This document shows positions 1,259 through 22,263 of a stretch of 37,854 bases of DNA, in pieces. The notes under the pieces are model-generated. The model was not told where the DNA came from. It saw only the letters and a list, made by a program, of their open reading frames with translations, and searched no databases. The translations under genes were made by a program, and so were the position numbers. The first letter of the stretch is position 1. Every line of letters starts with the position of its first letter. This stretch comes from Vulcanimicrobiota bacterium (GTDB taxonomy: Bacteria; Vulcanimicrobiota; Vulcanimicrobiia; Vulcanimicrobiales; Vulcanimicrobiaceae), in NCBI GenBank assembly GCA_030038215.1, contig JASHPI010000220.1, forward strand, positions 1 to 37,854. The letters are read 5' to 3'.

Positions 1259-1885
1259 TTAGGCGAGCGGCCAAACCAGAAAGACGATGCCGACGGCAGC
1301 AATCACGGCTCCGCTCAATACCTCGCCGTAACGCTCCAGCGGTCCGATCGACACGGATTCTAAGACGGCGTGGGACGAGACGCAGAGTATAACGTACGTC
1401 GAAATCGTCGCGATCGCAAAGCATGCTGCCATCACGGCTAAGAGCGTCGCGCCGAATCGGCCGGCGGCAAAGAAGGCCGGCATGCCTTCGAGCATCGGCG
1501 ACGAGCCGAGGATGAACAGCAACGGCGTTCGAGCCTTCCGCGTTCCTGCGGATTGTAGACGCCTCTCGCTCCGTAACTCGGGCATCGAGGCGATCATCAT
1601 CCACAAACCAAAGGCGATCAGCCCGGCACTCGACAGGATCGACACCGCATTGCCGAACCGTAACGCCAGCGCCAGCCCGGCGAGCCAAACGATCGCTCCG
1701 ATCCCCAGGGTTGAGAGCGTGTGACCCAGGCCGGCAATCGAGGCGGCGCGGGCCGTTTGCAGGCGCGACCAGCGTGCGCCACGCGCCACCACCGCGATCG
1801 GCACCCAGTGATCCGGCACCAGCGTGTGCAGAACACCGACGGCGATCACGCCTACGATCAGGAACAGCTCCGGCCCGGAGCTCAT
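1259..1885 (-). CDS. Nickel/cobalt transporter-like membrane protein (NiCoT/RcnA/UreH superfamily)
   Basis: ATG at 1885 (MSSGPELFLIVGVIAVGVLHTLVPDHWVPIAV...); HX4DH motif (HTLVPDH) in an early TM segment; several TM segments; overlaps the stop of an RcnR-like regulator. Confidence 0.7.
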   Translation of the reverse strand: MSSGPELFLIVGVIAVGVLHTLVPDHWVPIAVVARGARWSRLQTARAASIAGLGHTLSTLGIGAIVWLAGLALALRFGNAVSILSSAGLIAFGLWMMIASMPELRSERRLQSAGTRKARTPLLFILGSSPMLEGMPAFFAAGRFGATLLAVMAACFAIATISTYVILCVSSHAVLESVSIGPLERYGEVLSGAVIAAVGIVFLVWPLA

Positions 1886-2151
1886 CGCAAGTAGGTCTTT
1901 ACCACGTCGATGAGCTCTTGGGCCGCGCTCACGGTGGCGCGGGCTTTCGATGTGAGCACATGCGTCTTGACGTGGTCTTCCAGCACCTCGGACATCAGCG
2001 CGTTCATTGCCCCGCGCGCGGCCGCGATACGCTGAAGCACGACGCCGCAGCCGGCCTCGGCCTCCAGCGCGCGCTCCACCGCTTCGATCTGTCCGCGAAT
2101 TCGCCGGACGCGGTTGAGCAGCACCGCCTTGTTTTCGATCGTGTGACTCAT
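1882..2151 (-). CDS. Metal-sensing transcriptional repressor, CsoR/RcnR/FrmR family, RcnR-like
   Basis: MSHTIENKAVLLNRVRRIRGQIEAVERALEAEAGCGVVLQRIAAARGAMNALMSEVLEDHVKTHV...; H3, C35, H60 and H64 all present by counting. Confidence 0.88.
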   Translation of the reverse strand: MSHTIENKAVLLNRVRRIRGQIEAVERALEAEAGCGVVLQRIAAARGAMNALMSEVLEDHVKTHVLTSKARATVSAAQELIDVVKTYLR

Positions 2152-2225: not shown

Positions 2226-2254
2226 TTGACCAAAGCCGCGGGCGCGAGTATCCT
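2226..2254 (+). promoter_or_regulatory. Sigma70-type promoter for the M-box operon
   Basis: TTGACC (2226-2231), 17-bp spacer, TATCCT (2249-2254); predicted start about 2261, just upstream of the M-box. Confidence 0.65.
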
Positions 2255-2263
2255 GTATCCGGA

Positions 2264-2437
2264 TTCCTCGTTAGGTGAGGCGTCTGCACGATGAGGTGCC
2301 GCTGCCCGGAAAGGTCGAGAGACCCCAACGGGTAACCAGATCCCGCCGAATCAAGGCGGAATCTAATGCGGCCGGCCTTCGACACCTGAGGGTAACGATG
2401 GCCAAGGCGTGCAGTGCTAAAACTCGACATTGAGGGA
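2264..2437 (+). ncRNA. M-box (ykoK leader) Mg2+ riboswitch
   Basis: Recognisable M-box blocks in order: CTCGTTAGGTGAGGC, GCTGCCCGGAAAGGTCGAGAGACCCCAACGGGTAACCAGA, AATCTAATGCGGCCGGCCTTCG, GTGCAGTGCTAAAACTCGACATTGAGGGA. Outer helix TTCCTC (2264-2269) with GAGGGA (2432-2437). Confidence 0.93.
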
Positions 2438-2469
2438 GATCGCGCGAAAGCTGCGCGGCATTTCTCGAA

Positions 2470-2506
2470 CTGTCGGCCTGCGAGGAGCAGCGACAGTTTT
2501 TTATTT
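2470..2506 (+). terminator. Rho-independent terminator of the M-box leader
   Basis: CTGTCG-gc-CTG-cgaggag-CAG-CGACAG followed by TTTTTTATTT. Confidence 0.85.
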
Positions 2507-2534
2507 GTACGAGAGATGTCGGGAGGTACGTGTC

Positions 2535-2678
2535 ATGAAGAAGATTCTGGTGTTTCTGCACGATTTCGCATTCGGGCGGATTGGGCGCGGGCCGGCATCG
2601 CATGACGACAACCTGCGCGCGAATCGGTTTGCGGATCCGCGCCATGCATTCAGCTATTGGCGCGCTCTGGTCAGTTAG
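2535..2678 (+). CDS. Small ORF (47 aa) directly downstream of the M-box terminator
   Basis: ATG at 2535 preceded by GGGAGG (SD-like); MKKILVFLHDFAFGRIGRGPASHDDNLRANRFADPRHAFSYWRALVS. No family recognised. Confidence 0.5.
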   Translation: MKKILVFLHDFAFGRIGRGPASHDDNLRANRFADPRHAFSYWRALVS

Positions 2679-2765
2679 CCGAAGGCACGCCCGGCGTCGC
2701 GTGACGAACTAATTGGCGTCGTTCGCCTCCTTCAATCGACCTTAATCTCAGGATAATGAAGGCGC

Positions 2766-4667
2766 ATGCTGTTTGCAGTTGTCCTACTCGCGACACTCCA
2801 ACCCGCTGCGGCGACGACGCCTTCGGCGCTGCCTACCGCTGCGCCGGCGCGGCCGGCGTCACCGGCACCGACCCAAACGCCGTCGCCCGCTCCCACGCCA
2901 CGCTTCGAACTCTCCGGCAGCGGCTCGAACGTCTTCATCAACCAATCGACGGACGGCCCGGGAACGACGCCGCCTGAAGGACCCGGTTTCATACACGGCT
3001 CGCCGATCTCGCCGATGTCTCCGTATGACTGGTTCACGAACGCGCCGATCACCCCGGGCGTCGCCGGCGTCGCGCAATACGAAGTATCGGGCGTCTATCA
3101 CGCGACCGGCTTTGATTTCGCAGCCTCGCTTGGTCTGGGCTTACTGACGGGCAGCACGACCAACGCATTGTACTGGGGCGAACCCTTAATCCCGAACCTG
3201 AACAGTCACGCGCTCTCACGTCTGATCCCGTACGCGATCGTCTTCCCGACCCACGCGGGACAAGACGACGCCAGCGTCGCGAACCTAAGCTTACTCCAAG
3301 CGTCGGTCGCTGCGGCCGACGGCAGCTGGAGGGTCCGTGGCGGCTACTTCGATCTCGAGCAGACCGACCGTTTCGTCTTCGCACCGCCGGCAGTGACCAA
3401 TGCCTCGCCCTCGCTCGGCGTCCAGACTGCGGAAACCCTCGGGCCAGGTATACCATCGATCGACGCCTGGCTTGCGAGCCCTTCGACGTTACCCTTGCTC
3501 GGCGCCGACGGCGTCTGGCATTACGGCAGCGCGACGCTCGAGCTCACCGACGCGCTGTTGCCGTCGCTGGTGAACACAAACGTGCGCCTGACGATGGGAT
3601 CGCTTGTCTTCGATCGCGGCGATTTCGGACGCTTCTCCTTCCAGATCGCGCACCTTTGGACGACCGGTGACCCGATCTCGACGACCAGCTTCTTCGGCGT
3701 CGATCAAAAGATCTACGAGGGGCCGGAGGGGCGCCTCTACACGAGCGTGCTCGCCGATCAAGAGCAGACGATCGGCGGCGCTCGCGCGTTCTTCCATCCC
3801 TTCGCAAAATGGGACGCGCTGGCGGAGCTCGGTCGCGCTTGGTACGATGCCGGCCTCGTCAGCTATCCGGGTACGTCGCGATACGGCAACTTCGAGCACT
3901 TCAGCCTCGCGCGCCATCTCGGCGACGATGTCGCGACGATCGAGTACCATCGATTCGATCCGACCTACGCCACGATGATCCTGCCCTACGGAATACCCGA
4001 GAACGTCTGGAGCGTTGCGTGGTCGTGGCCCGGCGTCTGGCTGAAGTCGAACTATCAACTAGTGGATAACAGCGTGATCGGTGCGAACCGCGCCGGGTAT
4101 CGTTTCAAGTACGATCACAACAACAAGCGGTTGGAGATGCACGTTAGCTACGGTGATTGGAGGCAGCTCGTCCCCGAAACCGAGGCCAATGCCTCGCAAG
4201 CGGGTTTCGTCGACGGCTTCTTCCTCTTGCAGCGCAATGGCTTCGGAACTCTTGGACGGGACCGCCAGATCGGGCTCTACGTCGCGTGCCATCTACAGCG
4301 GGACGATCTCTCCTTCGATGCCGTGAATGACTACCTCAGCCGCCCCGCCGACCCCGGCCAACCGCTCGACCTGGTCAACGATCATCTGCCACAGTTCGTC
4401 GCCACATGGGGCCATCATTTCAGCAACACGTTGCTGGCCATGGGCGGCTACGGCCGGTATCAGGCGATCGGAACCTGGGCGATCACGCCGCTCAACGCGA
4501 TCTACGGCGTTGCCTTTGCCGGCGTACAGTTCGCGACGGGTCCAAAGAGCGCAATTCTGATTCAAGGCCGGCGCTACGCGCTGGTGGGATTTCCATCGAT
4601 GCCCGATGGGCCTCCGCCCACGATGAAGGGAACGGCCTTGATCGTCGACCAGAAATTCAGCATATGA
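2766..4667 (+). CDS. Putative outer-membrane beta-barrel protein, 633 aa, with signal peptide and Pro/Ala/Thr-rich linker
   Basis: N-terminal hydrophobic segment ending AAA, P/A/T-rich linker, then many alternating aromatic/polar strand-like stretches; no family recognised; ATGA overlap with the NRAMP-related gene. Confidence 0.65.
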   Translation: MLFAVVLLATLQPAAATTPSALPTAAPARPASPAPTQTPSPAPTPRFELSGSGSNVFINQSTDGPGTTPPEGPGFIHGSPISPMSPYDWFTNAPITPGVAGVAQYEVSGVYHATGFDFAASLGLGLLTGSTTNALYWGEPLIPNLNSHALSRLIPYAIVFPTHAGQDDASVANLSLLQASVAAADGSWRVRGGYFDLEQTDRFVFAPPAVTNASPSLGVQTAETLGPGIPSIDAWLASPSTLPLLGADGVWHYGSATLELTDALLPSLVNTNVRLTMGSLVFDRGDFGRFSFQIAHLWTTGDPISTTSFFGVDQKIYEGPEGRLYTSVLADQEQTIGGARAFFHPFAKWDALAELGRAWYDAGLVSYPGTSRYGNFEHFSLARHLGDDVATIEYHRFDPTYATMILPYGIPENVWSVAWSWPGVWLKSNYQLVDNSVIGANRAGYRFKYDHNNKRLEMHVSYGDWRQLVPETEANASQAGFVDGFFLLQRNGFGTLGRDRQIGLYVACHLQRDDLSFDAVNDYLSRPADPGQPLDLVNDHLPQFVATWGHHFSNTLLAMGGYGRYQAIGTWAITPLNAIYGVAFAGVQFATGPKSAILIQGRRYALVGFPSMPDGPPPTMKGTALIVDQKFSI

Positions 4668-6016
4668 CGAGTGGGGAGAAAACTTTGAGCACCGAGACGC
4701 TCCCAGTGGCTGCGCGCCGCGCCCGACCAAACATCTGGCGATCGGTGGTCATGTTCCTGTCGATCGTCGGCCCCGGTATTATTACGGCAAACGCCGACAA
4801 CGACGTGGGCGGGATCTTGACGTACTCGCAAGCCGGAGCGCAGTTCGGGTATTCGCTGCTCTGGCTGCTCGTGCCGATCACCATCGCTTTGGTGGTCGTG
4901 CAGGAGATGTGCGCGCGGATGGGCGCCGTCACCGGCAAGGGGTTGGCGGACCTCATTCGTGAGAACTTCGGCGTCAAGGTGACCTTCTGGTGCCTGCTGC
5001 TCTTTGTGTTCGGGGACATCGGCAACACCGCGACCGAGTTCGCCGGCGTCGCCTCCTCGGCCCCGATCTTCGCCGGATACCTGCATTTTTCGCAGGCCGA
5101 GCTCTTCAAGATCGTGCTGGTCATCTTGTCGGCCGTCTTCGTCTTTACCACCGTGACCCGCGGCACGGCTAAGGCCATCGAGCGTGTCTTCTTCGTCTTC
5201 TGCTTCGTCTACGTCGCTTATGTGATCAGCGCGTTTCTCGTCCGGCCCAACTGGAGCGACGTTCTCCATCAATCGATCGTCCCGCACTGGCAGCCGACGA
5301 AAGCCTACATCATCATGATCATCGCAGTGATCGGGACGACGATCTCGCCGTGGATGCAGTTCTACATCCAGGCAGCCGTAGTCGATAAGGGCGTGCGCAA
5401 GGGCGACTATGCCTTTTCCCGCCTGGACGTCGTAACCGGCGGCATCTGGACCGACGTCATCGCGTACTTCATCATCGTCTCTTGCGCGGCTACGATATAC
5501 ATTCACAACCTCCACGTTCCCGCGGCCCATCAGATCCAAGTCAACGACGTGGGCGACGTTGCCGTAGCGCTAGAGCCGCTTGCCGGCCAGTTCGCGGCCC
5601 TGCTCTTCGCCCTGGGGCTCCTCAACGCGGCCGTCTTTACCGCTTCGATCCTTCCGCTCTCCACCGCGTACTACGTCTGCGAAGCGTTCGGCTTCGAGCG
5701 AGGCGTCGATCACCGCTTCCGCGAGGCGCCGATCTTCTATACCTTCTACCTCGCGCTGATCGTGATCGGCGCCGGTGCCGTGATCGTTCCCGGGGCGCCG
5801 CTGCTGGCAATCATCTTCTACTCGCAAGTGCTCAACGGCGTGCTGCTCCCCATCGTGCTCGTCCTGATGCTTCTGCTGATCAACAATAAGAAGCTGATGG
5901 GCACATGGACGAATAGCGTGCTCTTCAACGTCATCGCCTGGGCGACGGCGATCATCGTCGGTGTTCTCACCTTGGTCTCGACGGCGCAGATCGTCTTCCC
6001 CTCGCTCGGAAGTTAG
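4664..6016 (+). CDS. NRAMP-related divalent metal transporter, NRMT-like (predicted Mg2+)
   Basis: MTSGEKTLSTETLPVAARRARPNIWRSVVMFLSIVGPGIITANADNDVGGILTYSQAGAQFGYSLLW...; NRAMP fold signatures, with TM1 DPGN replaced by DVGG and TM6 MPH-type motif replaced by TISPWMQF; downstream of an M-box. Confidence 0.88.
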   Translation: MTSGEKTLSTETLPVAARRARPNIWRSVVMFLSIVGPGIITANADNDVGGILTYSQAGAQFGYSLLWLLVPITIALVVVQEMCARMGAVTGKGLADLIRENFGVKVTFWCLLLFVFGDIGNTATEFAGVASSAPIFAGYLHFSQAELFKIVLVILSAVFVFTTVTRGTAKAIERVFFVFCFVYVAYVISAFLVRPNWSDVLHQSIVPHWQPTKAYIIMIIAVIGTTISPWMQFYIQAAVVDKGVRKGDYAFSRLDVVTGGIWTDVIAYFIIVSCAATIYIHNLHVPAAHQIQVNDVGDVAVALEPLAGQFAALLFALGLLNAAVFTASILPLSTAYYVCEAFGFERGVDHRFREAPIFYTFYLALIVIGAGAVIVPGAPLLAIIFYSQVLNGVLLPIVLVLMLLLINNKKLMGTWTNSVLFNVIAWATAIIVGVLTLVSTAQIVFPSLGS

Positions 6017-6031
6017 CGAGGCCCGGCAGCC

Positions 6032-6751
6032 TTGTCAAGTGCCGTCTTCACCGAACGCATTTTGATCGCGCTACTGCTGGGCGTCGTCATCGGAATCGAA
6101 CGGCAGTGGCGTCAACGCATGGCAGGGCTGCGCACCAATGCGCTGGTCGCAGTCGGGGCCGCGCTCTTCGCGTCGATCTCCATCCTGATGGACGCCAAAG
6201 TCAATCCGACGCAAGTGGCGGCTTACGTCGTCTCCGGCATCGGCTTCCTCGCTGGCGCCGTTATCTTCAAGGAAGGCTTGAGCGTGCGCGGCCTCAACAC
6301 GGCCGCGACGCTTTGGGCGACCGCGGCGGTCGGAACGCTCAGCGGCTCCGGCTTCGTCGTGGAAGCTGCGATCGGCGCCGCGGCTATCGTGGGTGCCAAC
6401 GTGCTGCTGCGACCGATCGTGCAGCGCATTAACCGCCAGCCGCTCGACCAGAGCGACCTTTCGCTTCCGTATGATATTTCCGTTACGTGCCACGAAGGGG
6501 ACGAAGAAACATGCCGCGCAAACGTGCTCGCGCAAATCCGCGCCACCGCGCTCATGCTTCGCTCGATAGAGAGTCACAACATCGACGCCGAGCACGTGCA
6601 AGTCAAGGCTCGGGTGGTAACCCAGAGCCGGGCCGACACCAAGCTCGAGCGCATCGTCGGCCGCTTGAGCCTTGATCCGAAGATCGTCGCCGCGAGCTGG
6701 ACGCTCGCCGGCGACGTCGGGGAAGCCACAGAGGCCGAGACCGAGGAATGA
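6032..6751 (+). CDS. mgtC: MgtC/SapB family protein
   Basis: ILIALLLGVVIGIERQWRQRMAGLRTNALVAVGAALF... is the MgtC N-terminal signature; C-terminal ACT-like domain; TTG at 6032 or GTG at about 6040 as start. Confidence 0.88.
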   Translation: MSSAVFTERILIALLLGVVIGIERQWRQRMAGLRTNALVAVGAALFASISILMDAKVNPTQVAAYVVSGIGFLAGAVIFKEGLSVRGLNTAATLWATAAVGTLSGSGFVVEAAIGAAAIVGANVLLRPIVQRINRQPLDQSDLSLPYDISVTCHEGDEETCRANVLAQIRATALMLRSIESHNIDAEHVQVKARVVTQSRADTKLERIVGRLSLDPKIVAASWTLAGDVGEATEAETEE

Positions 6752-6766
6752 CCCCTGCGTACCCGC

Positions 6767-6958
6767 TTATTTCAGCAGCGATTTTACGAACGCGTAGACG
6801 ACCACTCCGACCGCGAGCAGGACGTAGATTCGCAGCGTCCAGAGCAACGTGAGGATGCCCGGACCGAGCTGCCGGCGGGGCAGGGGCGTTTGGAGCGCCG
6901 ACCGGCGCTGATCCGGATCGAGGGCTTCGAGGAGCTGGCGCGGCTGATTCTCACTCAT
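6767..6958 (-). CDS. Small single-TM protein (63 aa) coupled to the NRAMP paralogue
   Basis: ATG at 6958 overlaps the stop of the upstream gene (ATGA, 6955-6958); MSENQPRQLLEALDPDQRRSALQTPLPRRQLGPGILTLLWTLRIYVLLAVGVVVYAFVKSLLK. Confidence 0.65.
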   Translation of the reverse strand: MSENQPRQLLEALDPDQRRSALQTPLPRRQLGPGILTLLWTLRIYVLLAVGVVVYAFVKSLLK

Positions 6959-8325
6959 TGCGCCAGCAACTGCGGAAAGGCCGTGACGACTCCGTAGACG
7001 GCACCGACAACCGCGATTCCGATCGTAACGGCGCCGCCCGCGACGTTGGCGATGCGTGAGTTTGCTAAGTTCCCCATGATCTCGCGGTCGTTGACGAGCA
7101 GCAAGAGGAAGAGCAACGCCGGCGCCATCAGCAGCGTGGCGATAACGTTGACCGCGATCGTAATCGCGAGGAGCGGAGCGCGCGGAATGAGCACGACCGC
7201 GGCCGCGACGACGATTGACGCCAGATTGATGGCATAGAAGAACGGTTCCTGGCGTAGCGTGAGATTGAGACTGTGTCCGCGCCGGAGCACTTCTCCAACC
7301 GCGTAGGACGAGCTCGTGGAGATGGTCATCGTCGCTACGAGCCCGGCCTCGATCATCCCCAAGGCAAAGAGCGTCACGCCCGTCGCGCCGAGAAACGGCC
7401 GTAACGCGGTCGCGAAGTCGGCGCTGTTCGCTAATCCGGCGACGCCGACGTGGTGCGTGAAGAGCGGCGCGCTGGCGACCACCGCGGCGATCGCGACGAT
7501 TGCGGCGAGGCACATGCCGAGCGCCGTATCGATGCGTCCTTGCGGAAGGTCGAGCCGCGTTAGGCCTTTGTCGACCGTTGCGCTCTGCTGAAAGAAGATC
7601 ATCCACGGCGTTACGGTCGCTCCGATATTCGCCAAGACCAGCGTTAAGAACGCGCCATGCGCACCGCCCGGAAGCGGTTGCCACGTCCCGAGGGCTCGCG
7701 TCAGCGCAGCGAAGTCCGGATGGCTGAACGCTGCGGCCGGAATGAACAGCAGGTTGGCGGTAGCCAAGAGCAGCACGATGCGCTCCCAGGCAAAATATCG
7801 TCCCGAGAGCAGAACGGCAACCGAAAAAACCACTGCCATCGTGACCGCAACCCACGGCGCAATGCCGAAAAAGGCCGTGCCGGCGCGGATCGCGACAAAC
7901 TCGGTTATCAAGGTGAGCACGTTTCCGACGCTCAAGTCCAGCATGGCGAAGTTGCCCCAGAAAGGTCCAAAGCGTTGGTAGATCAGCTCCGCATGCCCGC
8001 GGTGCGTTACGATCCCGATCCGAACCGTCGCCTCTTGCACGATGTAAGCCATTGCGAACGTCAGAATGATGAATGGAACGAAAAAGCCGATGCCGTACGT
8101 AGCGCCGGTCGTGGCGTACGAGAGCATGCTCGGTCCATCGTTCTCGCCCAGCATCACGAGAACGCCGGGACCGACCAGCAAAAAGAGCAGCAGGAACGGC
8201 CGGCGTCGCGCGCGCGCGCGCAGCACACGCGCGCGGTCATCCGCGCGTTTGCGATCCTCGTCCCAACCCTGAGGCGCCCAGGGACGAATCCACAGCGCCC
8301 GGAGGCGCTCTTTAGAGAGGAGCAA
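6955..8325 (-). CDS. NRAMP-family divalent metal transporter with non-canonical TM1 motif (predicted Mn2+-responsive)
   Basis: TTG start at 8325; ...LLFLLVGPGVLVMLGENDGPSMLSYATTGATYGIGFF... and ANIGATVTPWMIFFQQSATVDKG; overlaps the end of the mntR-like gene. Confidence 0.85.
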   Translation of the reverse strand: MLLSKERLRALWIRPWAPQGWDEDRKRADDRARVLRARARRRPFLLLFLLVGPGVLVMLGENDGPSMLSYATTGATYGIGFFVPFIILTFAMAYIVQEATVRIGIVTHRGHAELIYQRFGPFWGNFAMLDLSVGNVLTLITEFVAIRAGTAFFGIAPWVAVTMAVVFSVAVLLSGRYFAWERIVLLLATANLLFIPAAAFSHPDFAALTRALGTWQPLPGGAHGAFLTLVLANIGATVTPWMIFFQQSATVDKGLTRLDLPQGRIDTALGMCLAAIVAIAAVVASAPLFTHHVGVAGLANSADFATALRPFLGATGVTLFALGMIEAGLVATMTISTSSSYAVGEVLRRGHSLNLTLRQEPFFYAINLASIVVAAAVVLIPRAPLLAITIAVNVIATLLMAPALLFLLLLVNDREIMGNLANSRIANVAGGAVTIGIAVVGAVYGVVTAFPQLLAQ

Positions 8326-9010
8326 CTCGAACCATTGCCGCGTAGCCGGCCCGCAGGGCGATCGTGCGGTCCCCTAAACGGACGCGCAGCCGGCGGGCGT
8401 CTTTGCTTTCGACCAGCAGCGATGTGCCGGGAAGCACGCGGGCGGCCGCCAGGGCCTCGATCGCATCGTCGTCGCGATCGTCGAGACTGACGACGCGAGC
8501 GCGCGTGCCGACGGGCACGCTCGCGAGCGACTTGGTCGGGCGTGCGCAAGCGTCGCGATCGCCATAAGGGATCGGATGACCGTGCGGATCGCACTCCGGA
8601 AGTCCCAGCAGCTGCGCGATGCGCAGGGCGATGTCGTCGGAGATGACGTGCTCGATTCGCTCGGCTTCAGCGTGAACGCGTTCCAACGGCACGTCCAACA
8701 GGCGGTGCAAGAACGTCTCCAACAGACGATGGCGCCGCACCATTGCGATCGCGAGCTTGCGCCCGCGGCCGGTGAGATACAACGGGCTCAACGGCGTCGA
8801 GCTCGCTTCGAGCAAACCCTCGCGCTCTAGCAGGCGCTTCGCTTTACTCACCGAGACGCGACTGACACCGAGATAGCGCGCCAAGCTCGCAGCTTTCACC
8901 GGTCCGGTATCGCCCAGCTGATAGATCGCCTTGACGTAGTCTTCGCGCGCGCGCGATGCCGAGCGGTCGGATCCGACCGCGAGAACGAGCGGCACCGATT
9001 TGTTAGCCAT
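8312..9010 (-). CDS. DtxR/MntR-family metal-dependent regulator with FeoA-like C-terminal domain
   Basis: SRAREDYVKAIYQLGDTGPVKAASLARYLGVSRVSVSKAKRLLEREGLL...; VHAEAERIEHVISDDIALRIAQLLGLPECDPHGHPIP, with Glu at the DtxR Cys102 position as in MntR. Confidence 0.9.
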   Translation of the reverse strand: MANKSVPLVLAVGSDRSASRAREDYVKAIYQLGDTGPVKAASLARYLGVSRVSVSKAKRLLEREGLLEASSTPLSPLYLTGRGRKLAIAMVRRHRLLETFLHRLLDVPLERVHAEAERIEHVISDDIALRIAQLLGLPECDPHGHPIPYGDRDACARPTKSLASVPVGTRARVVSLDDRDDDAIEALAAARVLPGTSLLVESKDARRLRVRLGDRTIALRAGYAAMVRVAPL

Positions 9011-19788: not shown

Positions 19789-20781
19789 CTATGGCATGAA
19801 TCGTCCGATGCGGTTCTGATTGAGCTCGGTGAACCACAGCGCTTTGTCGGAGCCGAGCGCAATGCCCCACATTCCACGCGTCAGCGGCCCGGTCGTATAC
19901 TCGACGATCTCGCCACCGTGGATCGTGCCGATCTCGCTGTCCTCGTCGGCTGCGAACCAGATATTGTGGTCTGGACCGATCGTTATCGAGGTTATCGCAC
20001 CGCTCTCGCTCGCCGGAACCGCGTGTTCGGTAAAATGACCCGATGTGGTTACTTCGCCGACACCATCGCTTTCGCCGAACCATAAGGCGCCGCCGTGACT
20101 GACGATTGGTTGGGGCTCATCGTCCCCGTCGGTATTCTTGAAGAGACGAACCTGGCCCGAGATCGTAATGCGCCCGATTTGATTGGTTGAGAACTGCGTG
20201 AACCAGAGTGCGCCATCCGGGCCCGTAGTAATGCCGGACTCGGCGATGTTATTTTTCGATGGTACCTTGAACTCGGTCACCTTGCCGGCCGGGGTCATGC
20301 GCCCGATCCAATTGGCACCGTTTTCGTTCTCGGTGAACCAGAGCGCGCCGTCGGGGCCCTTGGTAATCGCGTAGGGAGGGTGCGCGACGGGGTACTCGGT
20401 GATGCGACCGGAAGTGGTGATGCGCCCGATCGCCCACTTGAACTGGGTCTGTGTAAACCACAGCGCCTTGTCGGGACCGGCAACGATCTCGGCTGGGTAA
20501 ACGTCCTTCGTCTTCGTTGGGTAGCTGCTCTGCTTTCCGGCGGTCGTGATTCGGCCGATGCGGCTGGCGTCGGTTTCGGTAAACCAGAGCGCTCCGTCGG
20601 GCCCACTCGCGATGTAGAGCACCCCCGCCGAGCGAGGCTTCACCGGGTAGAATCTAACGTTTGCGCCGGCCGCACCCTGCAGAACGTTGGGTTCGACCGG
20701 CGCGGTCGGAGCCGGTCCGTACGTTGCGGAGCAGCCGGCGAACGCGACCGCCAGCGCCAGCGAAAATCGACCCGATGCCAT
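19789..20781 (-). CDS. Virginiamycin B lyase-like (Vgb/streptogramin lyase family) beta-propeller lipoprotein
   Basis: Lipobox-like LALAVAFAGCSA; repeated GPDGALWFTE...IGRITTSG blades. Confidence 0.82.
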   Translation of the reverse strand: MASGRFSLALAVAFAGCSATYGPAPTAPVEPNVLQGAAGANVRFYPVKPRSAGVLYIASGPDGALWFTETDASRIGRITTAGKQSSYPTKTKDVYPAEIVAGPDKALWFTQTQFKWAIGRITTSGRITEYPVAHPPYAITKGPDGALWFTENENGANWIGRMTPAGKVTEFKVPSKNNIAESGITTGPDGALWFTQFSTNQIGRITISGQVRLFKNTDGDDEPQPIVSHGGALWFGESDGVGEVTTSGHFTEHAVPASESGAITSITIGPDHNIWFAADEDSEIGTIHGGEIVEYTTGPLTRGMWGIALGSDKALWFTELNQNRIGRFMP

Positions 20782-20829
20782 GGCGCCATTCTAGGCGCTC
20801 GAGCGTCAGCCGATCGTCAGCGCTCGCGG

Positions 20830-22263
20830 TTAGGCCTTGGGGCTGGTCATCTCCTTGGGCACGACGATCCGATCGTATTGCTCTTCGCTCACGTGCCCGA
20901 GCGCGAGGGCGGCCTTCTTCAACGTCGTCTTCTCTTTGTGCGCCTTCTTGGCAATCTCGGCAGCTTTGTCGTATCCGATGTGCGGTGAAAGGGCGGTAAC
21001 GACCATCAGCGATTCGTCGAGATATCGTTTGATCGCCTCTTCGTTGGCCTGCAAACCCTCGACGGCGTGTTCGCGGAACATCGTGCAGGCATCGCGCAGC
21101 AGCGTTGTCGAGTGCAGAAAGTTGTAGATCATCACCGGGTTGAAGACGTTCAGCTCGAAGTTTCCTTGTGAGGCCGCGAAGCTGATCGCGAGGTCATTGC
21201 CGTAGACCTGCACGCAGACCATCGTCATCGCCTCGGACTGCGTCGGATTCACTTTTCCCGGCATGATCGAGCTGCCCGGCTCGTTCTCGGGCAGGATCAG
21301 CTCGCCGATTCCGGCCCGTGGCCCCGAGGCGAGCCAACGGATGTCGTTGGCGATCTTCATCAACGCCGCCGCGAGCATCTTCAACGCGCCCGACGCGAAG
21401 ACGAAATCGTCGTGCGAAGCGAGCGCGGTGAATTTGTTCGGGTGCGAACGGAAGGGAAGACCCGTCAGCTCGGAGATCTTCTTCGCGGTGCGTTCCCCGA
21501 ACTCGGGATGCGCGTTGAGACCGGTGCCGACCGCCGTGCCCCCGATGGCAAGATCGTAGAGCGGCTTGAGCGCTTCCCGGCAGGCGGCGATCGCGCGGTC
21601 GAGCTGCGTAACGTAGCCCGAAAACTCTTGGCCCAGCGTCAGCGGCGTCGCATCCTGCAGATGCGTGCGCCCGACCTTCACCAGGTGGGACCATTGCTTG
21701 GCCTTGACGTCGAGCGCGTCGCGCAGCGCTTGCACCGCGGGCAGCATCGCCGCCATCGCTTCGGCTGCGGCCACGTGCATGGCGGTCGGAAAGGTATCGT
21801 TGGAAGACTGCGACATGTTCACGTGATCGTTGGGATGAATCGGCTTCTTCGATCCCAGCTCTCCGCCCGCGAGCTCGATGGCGCGATTGGAGATGACCTC
21901 GTTGACGTTCATGTTGGTCTGCGTCCCCGAGCCCGTTTGCCAGACGCGCAGCGGAAAATGCGCGTCCAGTTTGCCTTCGATCACCTCGTCGGCTGCGCGT
22001 ACAATTAGCCGGGCTTTCTCCTCCTCGAGCCGGCCAAGCTCGTGGTTCACCAACGCGGCCGCCTTCTTTAGTACGCCCATCGCGTGAATAACTTGGCGCG
22101 GCATCACGTCACGCGGCCAAGTGCCCTCGCCGATGTCGAAGTGAACGAGCGAGCGCGCGGACTGCGCGCCATAATATTTGTCGGCCGGCACCTCGATCGT
22201 GCCCATTGAGTCGCTCTCGGTGCGCGTCCTGGTGCTGTCCTTGGTGATGTCGGTCGTGGCCAT
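20830..22263 (-). CDS. fumC: Class II fumarate hydratase
   Basis: [28 protein letters not shown]..., [24 protein letters not shown]. Confidence 0.96.

Follow-up and report, generated by a model that had tools for sequence, protein, structure and literature searches.

The analysed window is the whole stretch of 37,854 nt (37.9 kb) and belongs to a genome of Candidatus Eremiobacterota (WPS-2), a poorly known phylum of soil bacteria, which carry LPS and BamA genes and are considered diderm (PMC6664022). An M-box leader with a promoter and an intrinsic terminator was located on the plus strand of the window. It is followed by a 47-aa ORF and the genes for a 633-aa putative outer-membrane beta barrel, an NRAMP transporter and MgtC, all in the same direction (Table 1). 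The start of the NRAMP gene overlaps the end of the barrel gene by ATGA, and the gene beyond mgtC lies on the opposite strand. The first-pass annotation, made from the letters alone, had named this promoter, this terminator and this co-directional, ATGA-coupled order of genes, and the coordinates and domains determined here agree with it.

Table 1. Features of the M-box operon in the window.
Feature	Position	Strand	Evidence
Sigma-70-like promoter, TTGACC-17-TATCCT	2226..2254	+	54/109 phylum M-box sites with a similar promoter
M-box Mg2+ riboswitch aptamer, RF00380	2260..2441	+	covariance model, 115.3 bits
Intrinsic terminator, hairpin GAACTGTCG...CGACAGTTT and T-tract	2467..2506	+	-16.5 kcal/mol
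Ribosome-binding context of the microprotein, GGGAGGTACGTGTCATG	2521..2537	+	conserved in genus
47-aa microprotein (MKKILVF...HDDNLRANRF...FSYWRALVS)	2535..2678	+	profile and direct scans, pN/pS
633-aa predicted outer-membrane beta barrel, acidic, N-terminal signal and PSP linker	2766..4667	+	AlphaFold2 model
NRMT-type NRAMP Mg2+ transporter (predicted), 450 aa	4664..6016	+	Pfam Nramp, E 1.9e-89
MgtC family protein, 239 aa, TTG start	6032..6751	+	PF02308, E 5e-35; PF21770, E 1e-21

The M-box that had been recognised from the sequence was matched by the covariance model over its full length (model positions 1-169) with an E-value of 2.9e-25, and the 115.3 bits obtained compare with a gathering score of 44. 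It was the single RNA family detected by cmscan in the window and is the only M-box of its genome. A promoter of this type was found just 5' of half of the M-box sites of the phylum (54 of 109), where shuffled sequences would give about one. The hairpin proper of the terminator spans 2467-2499 and has TTTATTT directly on its 3' side; the M-box thus possesses an expression platform in the form of a terminator 3' of the aptamer. At 90 of the 112 M-box sites scanned, a hairpin with a T-tract was present, mostly 20-75 nt 3' of the aptamer, and this count takes in a few hairpins at other distances. The shape frequently seen at the M-box sites of the phylum is CTGTCG..GCGAGGAG..CGACAG-TTTT. In the window, the loop GCGAGGAG of the hairpin can pair with the 5' P1 strand CCTCG. 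Duplexes between a site's own 5' P1 strand and its terminator reached -18.2, as against -17.5 for shuffled pairings (sd 0.17), and the same comparison gave no signal for pairing of the 3' P1 strand with the terminator. These values weakly suggest an antiterminator formed by the 5' P1 strand.

Altered leaders were observed in other genomes. In G038 (L249, G038:C29), a repeat-like insert near 20412-20830 on the minus strand takes the place of the aptamer core, and the promoter, P1 strands, terminator, microprotein and NRMT are still present; judged from the sequence, this is a natural loss of the Mg2+ sensor. In G080 (L257, G080:C50, 3049-3242, minus strand), the M-box is reduced to its 5' half and scores 40 bits, below the cut-off. 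The shortened leader has retained its promoter and terminator, with a gene for a 282-aa outer-membrane protein (OMP) 3' of it.

A profile search of the phylum gave 28 strong matches to the 47-aa ORF (E<1e-8), 24 of them just 3' of an M-box. A direct scan placed it at 26 M-box sites and revealed the conserved motifs HDDxLRANQ and FSxWRALV. The pooled pN/pS was 0.36, and the start context AGGAGGTAYGTGTCATG has one match per genome within the genus, each located at a microprotein start (12/12). On these data we regard the ORF as a real, conserved microprotein; the first-pass annotation had noted it and missed this conservation. The microprotein is also found at loci without the barrel, and at a few with remnants of NRMT only (G059, G065, G070), and therefore appears to be part of the M-box regulon itself. 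The bases 5' of its start in the window (2526-2537, GTGTCATGA) can be read as a mini-ORF, GTG-TCA-TGA (start-stop).

The window NRAMP aligned with EleNRMT (7qia), its best solved match, at 320.6 bits, as compared with 84.5 bits for the best classical NRAMP, which justifies the earlier wording "NRMT-like". Published NRMT motifs are DxxG on helix 1 and TxxA/T on helix 6, the latter in place of A/CxxM (PMC8806188). In the alignment, helix 1 of the window protein has DxxG as D47-V-G-G50. Helix 6 has TxxS; Met is absent as NRMT requires, but Ser stands for A/T. TxxS is common to 40 homologues in the phylum, and DxxG with TxxS is the commonest motif pair among the M-box NRAMPs of the phylum. In the MgtC protein, both the MgtC domain and the C-terminal domain scored above the cut-off.

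At 6955-9010 of the window (minus strand), convergent to the M-box operon, a second NRAMP with a DxxS/AxxT motif adjoins an MntR/DtxR-type regulator that carries a FeoA domain; the only PDB match of this NRAMP is EleNRMT (170 bits). Divergent to the operon, a CsoR/RcnR-family repressor (1882-2148, minus strand) is followed by an unannotated permease (1259-1885, minus strand) with the HX4DH-type motif HTLVPDH. Outside the barrel group, the commonest M-box operon consists of the M-box, a PRC-MgtE_N-CBS protein, which is an MgtE without the membrane domain, and an NRAMP (e.g., L186, L187, L191), often with PucR-like and GlnA-like genes downstream. In another gene group (L070, L071, L078, L111, L112, L256, L258, L259), etfB is usually accompanied by etfA, a TPR protein and a histone-deacetylase-like gene and sits 3' of the 633-aa barrel or of an unrelated 282-aa OMP, whether an M-box is present or not; we regarded these genes as secondary.

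The AlphaFold2 model of the 633-aa protein, built with 35 sequences, reached a pLDDT of 85.2 and a pTM of 0.83. Residues 1-41 (signal and PSP linker) are disordered in it, and 23 DSSP strands follow from residue 46 to 632. The model, in which barrel closure was assessed by the order of the strands and by the fold matches, confidently predicts about 22 barrel strands and no plug. No hydrophobic helix occurs beyond residue 40, and the family has no Cys. Amphipathicity lies only about 1.7 sd above that of shuffled sequences, and the model supersedes it as evidence for a barrel. The nearest PDB folds are almost all outer-membrane channels (OccD2/OprD, MOMP, chitoporin, maltoporin, AlgE, FrpB), with TM-scores of 0.3-0.4 normalised to the barrel. 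The predicted fold class is clear, though without a close solved relative: the nearest porins (OprD/OccD, maltoporin/chitoporin, Campylobacter MOMP, AlgE) have 16-18 strands and share about 8-10% identity with the barrel, which is larger. The sequence gave no match in Pfam (E<=10), NCBIfam (E<=1) or PDB profiles, and by this measure the barrel is assigned to a new family outside the known porin families (OprB, OprD, Porin_2, others). Net charge ranges from -4 to -26 in 35/35 members, and conserved acidic positions outnumber conserved basic ones. The acidic character is compatible with a cation-permeable pore, which is a fit and not a proof. A TonB-dependent transporter was rejected as a candidate on the model, where strand 1 begins at residue 46 and no N-terminal plug is seen. 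Homology to OprB was also rejected, because hhalign aligned the low-complexity PSP linker only.

We searched for promoter-like and terminator-like sites between the leader and the barrel gene, and none was found. The first-pass reading of a barrel under M-box control therefore held on three counts: the M-box was matched, nothing was found to separate the barrel gene from its leader, and a barrel was predicted whose fold search returned porins.

Homologues of the barrel were found in 63 of the 149 genomes of the phylum (E<=0.001; some are short distant matches). In a scan of 85,462 species with one genome each, nearly all matches were titled Eremiobacterota; the others were one Acidobacteriaceae bin, probably mis-binned, and a few records under other or no phylum names. 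The family thus appears confined to Eremiobacterota, as far as nearly all matches tell. The recurrence of homologues downstream of M-boxes, which had been suggested as a check, was confirmed. A same-strand M-box lies within 4 kb 5' (36-3645 nt) at 28 of the 58 barrel sites, where about 0.03 would be expected. With a rough chance expectation of 0.05% per site, the binomial probability is ~1e-75, a guide only, as relatedness is ignored. Gene calls in the related loci are our own ORF selections, and many of the genomes are fragmented bins. Linked barrels occur in three families of the phylum and in three gene orders, namely M-box-barrel-NRMT-MgtC, M-box-NRMT-barrel and M-box-barrel alone. The barrel can precede NRMT, follow it or stand by itself behind the M-box, so that its association is with the M-box regulon as opposed to any single neighbour.

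Of the 53 near-full-length barrels placed in a tree, 25 were linked to an M-box, 24 were unlinked and 4 could not be judged; one of the 24, from G028, is cut off by the end of its contig, directly behind an NRAMP gene, and in truth belongs with those 4. The deep-branching barrels are all without an M-box, and cmscan of the checked loci found no hidden or weak M-boxes near unlinked barrels. The distribution of linked and unlinked members indicates that the M-box link arose inside the family, with several gains or losses. Since about half of the judgeable barrels and the deep branches have no M-box, the family as a whole is not dedicated to Mg2+, and Mg2+ dedication is best read as a property of the window lineage. 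The transcription unit across both membranes proposed in the first-pass annotation is upheld in so far as M-box, barrel, NRMT and MgtC are linked far beyond chance in related genomes; a family-wide dedication to Mg2+ is not. Several genomes of the same genus (G042, G043, G049, G051) have retained the M-box and NRMT but lack the barrel, which the pathway can therefore do without. In G018 and G019, which have no M-box, and in G024, a permease with the HX4DH motif, of the same family as the permease at 1259-1885 of the window, begins 13-31 nt 3' of the barrel, which is again found beside a predicted divalent-metal permease. In G016, such a permease and a CsoR-type gene are divergent to the barrel.

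The place of the barrel in the operon can be taken by other outer-membrane proteins. In G047, a genome of the window's genus, the M-box and microprotein precede a 458-aa OprB porin, which stands at the barrel position ahead of NRMT. In G033, the M-box is followed by the microprotein, NRMT, OprB and MgtC, and in G127 by OprB, with a 180-aa predicted ORF between. OprB is scarce in the phylum (15 matches in 12/149 genomes), and three of its matches lie in M-box operons, far above chance. An unrelated 282-aa OMP follows the M-box and microprotein in G097, NRMT in G054 and the truncated aptamer in G080; it would thus occupy the barrel slot at two or three sites. As unrelated outer-membrane proteins replace the barrel, the function under selection should be passage across the outer membrane. 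We consider this the strongest argument, and the replacement by unrelated porins in the same slot also strengthens the channel part of the first-pass reading.

At high Mg2+, the M-box would fold, the terminator at 2467-2506 would form and transcription would halt. At low Mg2+, the terminator would pair with a leader segment, probably the 5' P1 strand, and RNA polymerase would read through. This direction of switching is inferred from known M-boxes. Read-through would supply the outer membrane with a large acidic pore and the inner membrane with the NRMT transporter, along with the microprotein and MgtC. The barrel would most likely act as a cation-permeable pore that raises the flux of Mg2+ into the periplasm for NRMT, and MgtC and the microprotein would most likely tune the response. 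We infer the passage of Mg2+ through the barrel, its selectivity and the roles of the microprotein and MgtC from these arrangements. On balance, we favour an Mg2+-starvation operon that spans both membranes, with the barrel passing Mg2+ through the outer membrane, and hold this to be probable, well short of certain. Rather doubtful as a whole is the fuller proposal of a trans-envelope Mg2+ import system built on a plan reached independently in mycobacteria, in which the Mg2+ channel, a plugless barrel with about 22 strands belonging to a new family, has the new 47-aa microprotein as an accessory and is repeatedly swapped for unrelated porins.

General porins are commonly credited with passing Mg2+ across the outer membrane. 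The barrel could be one of them, or a porin unspecific for the metal that admits any divalent cation or chelated Mg2+ (for example, as citrate); some lineages would have brought it under Mg2+ control, and it would aid uptake unselectively. The M-box-free half of the family, with all the deep branches, would fit such a porin, and the HX4DH permease next to the barrel in G018, G019 and G024, joined by the CsoR-type gene in G016, hints at other metals. The barrel can moreover be replaced by OprB, members of which elsewhere are sugar or inorganic-ion porins (PMC8707739). We nevertheless find this explanation unlikely for the window, in whose clade the link of the barrel with the M-box, NRMT and MgtC is very tight.

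A barrel that carries no Mg2+ may also be imagined. OprH of P. aeruginosa, a small barrel of 8 strands, has been proposed to strengthen the outer membrane at low Mg2+, and low Mg2+ loosens LPS packing in diderms. The 633-aa protein might, in the same way, strengthen the membrane when Mg2+ stops bridging LPS, and a loosened LPS layer would call for it. The LPS genes of the phylum speak for it as well (PMC6664022). Against such a role, however, stand a barrel of about 22 predicted strands, best fold matches that are channels, a charge that is acidic and not basic, and the replacement by OprB porins, which speaks for a pore; strengthening of the membrane is therefore improbable. Finally, the barrel gene might be an unrelated passenger downstream of the M-box, as M-box-NRMT operons without it exist in the same genus and some operons continue into etfBA, which has no known link to Mg2+. 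This is very improbable in view of a linkage at 28/58 sites in three families and three gene orders, and of the independent recruitment of other OMPs to M-box operons. The preferred reading remains that of an outer-membrane pore for Mg2+ in the window lineage.

The closest precedent is the pe20 operon of M. tuberculosis, which comprises an M-box, the uORF rv1805A, PE20/PPE31 ... and MgtC; growth at low Mg2+ and low pH depends on PE20/PPE31, which are held to import Mg2+ across the outer membrane (PMC12810186, PMC7312605). The operons are alike in the M-box leader, a conserved small ORF, proposed outer-membrane Mg2+ carriers and MgtC. They differ in that the PE/PPE proteins are no beta barrels and are located in the mycomembrane, the M. 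tuberculosis M-box uses a translational platform and Rho, and NRMT is absent from the operon as listed. Rv1805A has a conserved N terminus with Pro7, whereas the Eremiobacterota microprotein conserves HDDxLRANQ...FSxWRALV and has no Pro7. We rejected the placement of the microprotein in the Rv1805A uORF family since Pro7 is absent from the aligned microproteins, Rv1805A being known by description (PMC12810186). The parts being unrelated, the same plan was apparently reached independently. The first-pass annotation had called a dedicated Mg2+-responsive outer-membrane channel unusual, a statement that needs a qualifier in view of PE20/PPE31 (PMC12810186, PMC7312605).

Other known systems share single traits with the operon. 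Shin et al. (2014) described M-box-nrmT and M-box-mgtE-nramp operons, in which the M-box likewise precedes NRAMP-related Mg2+ transporters; they mention neither an outer-membrane protein nor a porin (PMC4072509). MnoP of Bradyrhizobium japonicum and RopAe of Rhizobium etli are outer-membrane porins for one divalent metal, but they serve Mn or Cu, belong to other porin families and have no riboswitch control described (PMC6011978). FmvB of Francisella tularensis is an outer-membrane protein induced by Mg2+ limitation, but it is a paralogue of iron-acquisition OMPs with no M-box operon described (PMC4981453). In the open-access literature, no paper was found that connects Eremiobacterota with riboswitches, and none of those listed for magnesium riboswitches and porins was relevant.

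The repeated recruitment of three unrelated kinds of outer-membrane barrel by one riboswitch regulon would mean that the outer-membrane step of Mg2+ uptake is regulated and can become limiting for growth. The microprotein gains a clear physiological context, and the operon provides a convergent parallel to the pe20 operon of M. tuberculosis. If the proposed reading is true, an outer-membrane gate for Mg2+ may be a general need of diderms.
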